From Candidatus Poseidonia sp. (GTDB lineage: Archaea > Thermoplasmatota > Poseidoniia > Poseidoniales > Poseidoniaceae), in contig JALRLR010000005.1 in NCBI GenBank assembly GCA_023254355.1, forward strand, positions 1 to 35,149: a stretch of DNA of 35,149 bases, written 5' to 3'. The notes under the pieces were generated by a model. That model saw nothing but the letters and a program-made list of their open reading frames with translations, did not search any database and was not told the origin of the DNA. The position numbers were made by a program, and so were the translations under genes. Of this stretch, positions 27,339 to 30,450 are shown one piece after another (position 1 is the first letter of the stretch; each line of letters opens with the position of its first letter).

Positions 27339-27833
27339 ATGAAGCGTCGCTTGCCTTGCAGGGCCATGACGGAACCGGGCGTGCAACGTGTCTACGCACC
27401 CAATTCGATTTGCTTTGGTTGTGGTCCTGCCAACGAACACGGTTTGCGCATTGATTCGCATCGCACCGAGGAAGGCTTGGTGATGGAGTTTCAACCCGAG
27501 CCTCACCATCAAGCCTTCCCCGGAATGGTGAACGGCGGTATCATTGGAACGTTGCTTGATTGTCACGGCAATTGGGCTGCGGCCGTGGCGCTGATGGACG
27601 CCCATGGGCTGGATGAACCCCCGTGTACGGTCACCGCCAGTTACGAGATTAAACTCCGTCGACCGACGCCGGCCGACGAACGTTTAACGGTCAAAGCGAC
27701 CGTGAGCGAACTTCTCGACGACCGTGCAACCGTTTCGTTGGTCCTTGAGGCTGCGGGAAAGGTTTGTGCGACGGGAAGCGGTCTTTTTGTCGCTGTTAAG
27801 GAAGGTCACCCTGCCTTCCATCGCTGGTCGTGA
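27339..27833 (+). CDS. Hotdog-fold (PaaI-type) thioesterase
   Basis: CFGCGPANEHGLRIDSH...QAFPGMVNGGIIGTLLDCHGNWAA...VTASYEIKLRRPTPADERLTVKATV. Confidence 0.82.
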   Translation: MKRRLPCRAMTEPGVQRVYAPNSICFGCGPANEHGLRIDSHRTEEGLVMEFQPEPHHQAFPGMVNGGIIGTLLDCHGNWAAAVALMDAHGLDEPPCTVTASYEIKLRRPTPADERLTVKATVSELLDDRATVSLVLEAAGKVCATGSGLFVAVKEGHPAFHRWS

Positions 27834-27842
27834 GGTCTCGGT

Positions 27843-28372
27843 ATGGTTCGGCCCACGCCCGTTCAAACGGCGGGGCTTGACCGCCTTCGTGAGCGGGTGT
27901 TGCTCACGATGCAGGGCATGGCCTCGTTGGGTGACGTTGACTGTTCATCCTTGCGATTAATCCCTTTGGGCTTGTTGCGAAAAAGCGCCACTCAGCGGCA
28001 CGGCGTCACCCGATGGATTCGTCATCCTTCGGGGGAACTGAGCGTGGAAACGGTCGACCTCCACCCTCGCCTGTTGGAGGATGAATGGAGCGATTATGCC
28101 GCTTTGTTCTCTTTCATGAGTATCTCCATGCGCTGGGTTGGCGGGCACACGACCGGACCTTTCGGACCTTGGAAGCGACTTGGCCGGACACCCAGGCCTC
28201 CCTTCGGGGGCCGGACTTTACACGCCGCATGCGGGAAGGGAAAGCCACGTGGTATTGGCGATGCCCTTCGTGCGAACACGACTACCCCCGCCAGCGAAAA
28301 GCAGGAGGTCGCTACCTTTGCCGAACCTGTCGCCATGTGCTGCAGGACGTACCAGCCGAGGACGCCCAATGA
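27843..28372 (+). pseudogene. SprT-like zinc metallopeptidase interrupted by an apparent -1 frameshift (or sequence error)
   Basis: N-terminal part in the frame of 27843 (LRLIPLGLLRKSATQRHGVTRWIRHPSGELSVETVDLHPRLLEDEW); catalytic part in the frame of 28085 (RFVLFHEYLHALGWRAHDRTFRTLEATWP ... CPSCEHDYPRQRKAGGRYLCRTCRHVL). Confidence 0.7.
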
Positions 28373-28386
28373 AATAGGAGAGGGCC

Positions 28387-30450
28387 GTGGTGAGCATGTT
28401 CAGCATGCAACGCTCGTTCGTCCGTTGGTGGTGCCTCACAGCGACGTTGCTGTTGAGCATCGTCTCGCCGTTGGGTGCCTCGTTGGCAACGGCCGGATTG
28501 ACCTCCGGTGATGGAGGAGGCGAGTTGTTTCTCTCTTGTCGTGAAGACAACGATTGCGTCCTGACGCCGACTCCGGTGGGTGAAGAGACCGTCTCTGGAC
28601 AGACCACCGCCACCGCCTTTCAACCTGAAACCCTGACCTTTGAGTTCCAGGCCGATCCCCCTCAACAACATGTTGCGTTGTTGCCCGATACGCTTCGCGA
28701 ACTCGAAATTGATTTTCGTCATCAAACCGAAGCCGGCAGTTGGTTCAGGCCTGCGTTGGAGGTCCGATTGGTCCTTGGTGAGAACGTGAACGAATGGGCG
28801 TTTGAGGCTCAGAACCTTCCTGATTTTTCCAGTTCAACGTACGTCCTTGAGAACGAAGCGTTGGACCTTGACCGTGGGCGTGTCCTGTGGGCCAATGAAC
28901 CCATTCGACTGTTCATCACCGTGACGCTTGACCGACCCGGTTCATGGGCCTTGAACATGCGTGGTGCTTCGGCACTGCAACTCGATGTTGAGTGGTCGTT
29001 GGACCCTGAAAGCGTGAACAGCGACGAGCCCACTTCCACGACCCAACCAAAGGACACGGCGTTTGAGGACCTGCATCGAGGGGCGTTGGTTGGGGCCGAC
29101 CATGACTGTTGGGCCTTCGAGGTGGAGACGCATGAAGTTTTGCGGTTGCTCGTTGAGTGGGAGCAGGTGCCCATCGAGGTTGAGCAACCGCACGGTGTCC
29201 CGGATTTGATCACGGCCGCCGGCCGTCGTGCGCCGGTGCCGGAGGTGCTGGTCGACGACGATGGGGATTCGGTGAAGATGACGTATCGCTGGCGAGCGCT
29301 TTCAACCGGTGACTACACGATGTGTTTGCACGGTTCACCCGAGAAAATCCAACCCTATGTATGGTCGGGCGTTTTTGGTTACGAGAGTTTTGGTCCCACC
29401 GACCCAACCGGCTTTGACACCACGAGTTACTATCCGCAAGGCGCTGCCATCCTTGGCAACCTCGATGACCCTTACACCCTTCACGGTCAAGGCGTAGCCT
29501 TGTTGTTGCTTTCGTTTGCGTTGCTCGGTGTGTTTGGGCTCATGGCGATGAGGCAAACGACCTCCTACGGTTTACGGTTTGGTATGTTTGTCCCAGGGGT
29601 CGTGTTGTTGTTGCTCGGAGGGGTTTTGCATCCCCTCTGGGCGATGGCCGATGAGGTCCAGCAGGAAGATGAAATCACCCTTGATGAGCTCATTGAGATG
29701 CGATTGCAGCAGTTGTGGGATGTCTCGGCGGATGGCGTGCCCGAACAAACCCTGTCCACCCACACGGGAGCGACGTGGGGCATGTTGGACGGTGAATCGT
29801 TGAAATTGAAGTTGACCGTTGAGCAAGCCGTCCCCCTTTCCGACGGTCGATGGCAACTGATCGTTCCTGAACTCGAAGCTCTGCGTCTTGATTCCGTCAT
29901 TTTTGGTCAAGTGGCGAAAGGTCAGACGCAAGGCAGTCAAGACGGCATGTTGGAGAGTCAAACCGTTCGATTTGTCCTCCTTGCCGGCCGTTCGCTCCTG
30001 CTCGACTTGCTGATGCTCGAAGCCTTGCTGGTGGTGGAAGAATTGCCGGAATCGTCGGTGTTCCACATCGAGACGACCATGGTTCAAACCCAAGCATCAG
30101 GTTCCATCGCAGCACCTGCATGGGGTACACGACCGTCTGCCATTCCTGCGAGCGAATGGGTGCGGCTTCAAGCCTCCTTGTTTCCCGAGCGGATCTCCAT
30201 CAGCCTTTGCGATTGCGATTTGGACCTGTTGGACGTGACCTTTTTGCCATCAAACGGTTTTGATGAGGCCGATGTCCCCCAAGGTGATTGGGGGTTGCGA
30301 AACGCCGTTGGTTTGTTGCCCTACGGTTCGGTGATGATGTGGAGTGGACTCTTGCTGGGTGTGGTCGCCACCTCGCTGGAGGTTCAACGAAATGTCCGAG
30401 CCCAACAACTGGCGGCGAGGTACATTCCTCGCACCGAGCGATGGAAGTGA
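28387..30450 (+). CDS. Large secreted/membrane protein of unknown function
   Basis: Signal segment WWCLTATLLLSIVSPLGASLATA; central TMs VALLLLSFALLGVFGLMAM and MFVPGVVLLLLGGVLHPLWAMA; C-terminal TM YGSVMMWSGLLLGVVATSL; starts GTG 28387 or ATG 28396. Confidence 0.75.
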   Translation: MVSMFSMQRSFVRWWCLTATLLLSIVSPLGASLATAGLTSGDGGGELFLSCREDNDCVLTPTPVGEETVSGQTTATAFQPETLTFEFQADPPQQHVALLPDTLRELEIDFRHQTEAGSWFRPALEVRLVLGENVNEWAFEAQNLPDFSSSTYVLENEALDLDRGRVLWANEPIRLFITVTLDRPGSWALNMRGASALQLDVEWSLDPESVNSDEPTSTTQPKDTAFEDLHRGALVGADHDCWAFEVETHEVLRLLVEWEQVPIEVEQPHGVPDLITAAGRRAPVPEVLVDDDGDSVKMTYRWRALSTGDYTMCLHGSPEKIQPYVWSGVFGYESFGPTDPTGFDTTSYYPQGAAILGNLDDPYTLHGQGVALLLLSFALLGVFGLMAMRQTTSYGLRFGMFVPGVVLLLLGGVLHPLWAMADEVQQEDEITLDELIEMRLQQLWDVSADGVPEQTLSTHTGATWGMLDGESLKLKLTVEQAVPLSDGRWQLIVPELEALRLDSVIFGQVAKGQTQGSQDGMLESQTVRFVLLAGRSLLLDLLMLEALLVVEELPESSVFHIETTMVQTQASGSIAAPAWGTRPSAIPASEWVRLQASLFPERISISLCDCDLDLLDVTFLPSNGFDEADVPQGDWGLRNAVGLLPYGSVMMWSGLLLGVVATSLEVQRNVRAQQLAARYIPRTERWK

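Follow-up and report, generated by a model that had tools for sequence, protein, structure and literature searches.

A SprT-like metalloprotease gene in the window, the whole 35,149-nucleotide stretch of Candidatus Poseidonia sp. that was analysed here, is split over two reading frames by a one-base gap, and we consider it probable, at roughly 60%, that the organism does possess this base and the assembly consensus has lost it, i.e. that the split reflects a consensus or assembly error. The locus (27843-28372) would then hold an ordinary single-frame gene for a SprT-like HExxH metalloprotease from Candidatus Poseidonia, a member of the marine group II archaea, and the lack of a single base at 28105/28106 interrupts its frame in one metagenome-assembled genome (MAG). 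The real protein would in this case comprise approximately 176 aa, in which an N-terminal part made of helices and strands precedes the HExxH helix, a third His and a C4 zinc ribbon.

The division of the gene between two frames had been proposed in a preliminary description of this DNA, and both translation and alignment confirm it. The frame that begins with ATG 27843 (MVRPTPVQTAG...EDEWSDYAA) agrees with the intact ortholog of the closest sister genome as far as 28105 and then runs out of frame until a stop at 28511; its N-terminal part (27843-28105) is colinear with residues 1-88 of that ortholog. The C-terminal part follows in the shifted frame at 28106-28372 (89 codons with a TGA end, within the ORF 28085-28372), which is bounded upstream by the TGA at 28082-28084, as had been noted before. 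This second frame includes the HExxH motif and the cysteine pairs CPSC...CRTC. The predicted zinc-binding and catalytic motif HEYLH was correctly assigned to the 28085 frame, but it is found at 28115-28129 and not near 28108; the codon of the third His is located at 28148-28150. The C4 zinc ribbon (CxxC...CxxC; Zn_ribbon_SprT, PF17283, in Pfam) extends from 28262 to 28330. Both halves are colinear with one and the same ortholog, at approximately 90% and 97-99% amino acid identity, respectively, a match that appears well beyond chance.

The neighbouring genes lie on the same forward strand. Upstream, a gene of the thioesterase superfamily (Pfam 4HBT, 23.6 bits vs. a cut-off of 20.6) occupies 27342-27833, its putative start at 27342 having been chosen here, and downstream an open frame from GTG 28387 (28387-30450) encodes 687 aa with apparent membrane segments. 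Hence, the intergenic distances of 9 and 14 bp given earlier are correct. The order of thioesterase, SprT-like and 687-aa gene (27342-30450 in the window) is conserved across Poseidoniaceae: all 80 relatives have the thioesterase gene upstream, and at least 65 of them have the 687-aa gene downstream, in each case in the same orientation as the SprT-like gene; some of the loci end before the 687-aa gene is reached.

The window represents contig C196 of a metagenome assembly (G000; 240 contigs, 82% complete). Its closest sister in the collection (G016, corresponding to JADHNB010000009.1 of the MAG Poseidonia sp. BS301-5m-G57) could be aligned over 22,526 bases with 93.7% DNA identity, and the only gap in this entire alignment with contig C23 of the sister falls between 28105 and 28106, where the window lacks a single base. 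The ortholog of the sister genome is one continuous, colinear frame of 176 codons. A one-nucleotide deletion had been among the options listed in the preliminary description, and the alignment now assigns it to this position. Compared with the sister, 12 codon differences in the N-terminal half (87 codons compared) are synonymous and 6 nonsynonymous; the corresponding numbers for the C-terminal half (89 codons) are 13 and 1, which together amount to 25 synonymous and 7 nonsynonymous differences. The predominance of synonymous changes in both halves indicates that selection maintained the encoded protein up to the very recent past. Such a pattern suggests that selection acted on the whole protein through most of the divergence of the two genomes and that the break would be either very recent or not real. 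A long-standing pseudogene should show relaxed selection, but neither half shows signs of decay in the codon comparison with the sister, and apart from the gap no further lesion was found in the gene in the alignment and the codon comparison with this genome.

Furthermore, the wider relatives were included. In all 80 relatives taken from the contig collection (genome_contigs), tblastn recovered one unshifted segment covering the gene. The order-wide search gave matches in 240 of 293 genomes, and among the matches listed only the assembly of the window showed a match in two pieces. The two-frame layout is thus absent from these relatives and private to this assembly. Full-length single-frame orthologs in all close relatives had been named beforehand as the sign of a sequence error, and exactly these are observed. 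As a separate observation, the ortholog in genome G010 (L044:3001-3528) carries an in-frame TAG four codons before the usual end; we rejected it as a gene disruption, because it trims the tail only.

The most serious competitor of a consensus error is a genuine, very recent frameshift that is private to the sampled population. It would have turned the gene into a young, inactivated pseudogene; the 27843 frame would then yield a shortened protein ending in foreign residues, and no in-frame catalytic helix would be made. We regard such a mutation as possible, with a chance of about one in three. It is consistent with a gap that is present in the consensus, is the sole gap in 22.5 kb and lies outside any homopolymer. 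The gene may also be dispensable, since several genomes belonging to sister family f2 gave no match to it. Against it speak the lack of a second lesion, the apparent selection on both halves and the SprT-like match in every sampled member of the genus. With such a match throughout the sampled genus, and with no second intact SprT-like copy found in the assembly, a real loss would be unusual. The fragmented state of the assembly also counts toward an error in the consensus.

The general quality of the assembly was evaluated from the sampled stretches, which provided 210 kb of sequence alignable with the sister genome. Within these, 21 gaps with a length not divisible by three were counted, 10 of them representing sequence lacking in the assembly of the window and 11 sequence lacking in the sister, and most of them are apparently intergenic or located at gene boundaries. 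Gaps that are about equally frequent in both directions and apparently for the most part outside genes indicate that the assembly is not grossly error-ridden, a point against a consensus error. In addition to the SprT-like gene, an automatic frameshift screen reported three more cases in this assembly; loci L185 and L193 were not counted as frameshifted genes, since their shifts coincide with the probable gene start or precede it. Clear frameshifts within conserved genes amount to two in the assembly of the window (the SprT-like and a lipoprotein-like gene) and none in the sister, counts that are to be read as lower bounds, because the screen in the sister-to-window direction overlooked the SprT-like case owing to its distance limit.

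The second case is a one-base frameshift at L199:677 in a 222-aa lipoprotein-like gene (L199:668-677 on contig C159, compared with L213:795-1463). The deletions in both genes come after the 8-mer GCCGCTTT on one DNA strand, and a deletion is present at 2 of the 10 shared occurrences of this 8-mer in the assembly of the window and at none in the sister. One of the two genes is read from the GCCGCTTT strand and the other one from the opposite strand. The same context with opposite gene strands points to a cause at the DNA level, be it sequencing or mutation, and not to a signal in the mRNA. The link to the 8-mer was spotted post hoc at two sites and is no more than suggestive.

This observation is also relevant for the idea that programmed ribosomal frameshifting or transcriptional slippage unites the two frames, which would agree with the otherwise good conservation of both halves. 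However, with respect to its gene, the deletion at L199 is on the other strand, which leaves no common mRNA motif, the two-frame arrangement occurs in none of the 80 relatives, and the gene is intact in the sister. Direct reading of the junction GCCGCTTTGTTCTC verified the earlier statement that it contains no classical slippery heptamer of the form X_XXY_YYZ, and there is no long homopolymer at the site either. Since no relative shares the layout and no slippery site exists, we rejected recoding, which had been offered as an option before, and we assign it only a minimal probability. Equally improbable is that the break is real and an active enzyme is still made from the two frames, via slippage or via interacting fragments, which would represent a new, lineage-private split protease. 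A shift that is both real and bridged would add a private example of recoding among marine archaea, but the present data offer no support for it.

Internal initiation had been proposed as well. On this reading, the C-terminal 95 aa would be a separate protein starting at the candidate ATG 28085-28087, and the locus would encode two proteins. In the window, this ATG is preceded by GGAGG (28076-28080) and the reading frame stays open as far as 28372. Yet none of the 80 relatives has GGAGG at the corresponding position, an ATG is present in 48 of 80 but is out of frame there, and such a protein would begin with out-of-frame junk that extends to the break. The N-terminal part contains many invariant residues (R46, T50, H53, R57, H74, P75), which makes it unlikely that the C-terminal fragment alone is functional. 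Hence, the comparison lends no support to initiation at ATG 28085, and we consider a second protein very unlikely, albeit slightly less so than recoding.

Returning to the missing base as the favoured explanation, the case also calls for caution, because a one-base difference in the consensus of a single MAG can mimic a split gene or recoding, an ambiguity that aligning a single close relative is sufficient to resolve.

Regarding the identity of the intact protein, residues H92, E93, H96 and H103 (numbering of the sister ortholog), corresponding to the HExxH-6-H ligands, are invariant in both sets of orthologs compared (27 and 38), and the cysteines C141, C144, C160 and C163 of the ribbon are likewise invariant in the aligned orthologs. 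The zinc ribbon of the window matches PF17283 with E=3.8e-5, at 24.1 bits below the cut-off of 28.1, which is exceeded only in ortholog L028 (31.9 bits), the others staying below. The best NCBIfam match is NF003339, with E-values of 1e-8 for the sister ortholog and 3.5e-9 for L020, its scores of 22.1-36.5 bits lying below the cut-off of 113; SprT-like PF10263 reached 13.6-16.7 bits, below its cut-off of 25.6. Catalytic-domain scores under the curated cut-offs justify the term SprT-like and not certified membership in the family. The AF2 model of the sister protein is confident, with a pLDDT of 93.6, and the first PDB match in Foldseek is the SPRTN protease 6mdx, a weak one (E=0.044, TM 0.31), all E-values against PDB being above 0.04. 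Sequence profile searches against PDB returned zinc-ribbon matches near threshold only. The ribbon (approximately 28250-28348 in the window) also resembles that of the large subunit of archaeal DNA polymerase D (5ijl, profile E=0.004). Judged by the resemblance in motif, profile and fold only, the protein is probably a zinc protease of the SprT/SPRTN type, and predicted SprT-like zinc protease is the best label.

Among the known systems, the SprT family (PRK04351/NF003339; PF10263, PF17283) shares with the Poseidonia protein the order of HExxH, a further His and a C4 zinc ribbon, but the catalytic domain of the latter scores under the curated thresholds of the family. For SprT in Poseidoniales, the literature search found nothing except a report that a marine mobile element carries SprT-like genes (PMC12324425). 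The structural model gave the SPRTN protease domain as top match despite its low global TM-score, and the archaeal minigluzincin jannalysin (4jix) was matched weakly alongside. For selecase (4qhi), another archaeal minigluzincin, the TM-score reached up to 0.64 over the target. However, minigluzincins, at approximately 110 aa, do not reach the length of the 176-aa protein and have no room for an additional C-terminal zinc ribbon. SPRTN and Wss1 act in the repair of DNA-protein crosslinks (PMC6945406), and only by analogy with these two proteases a role in crosslink repair may be envisaged for the Poseidonia protein.
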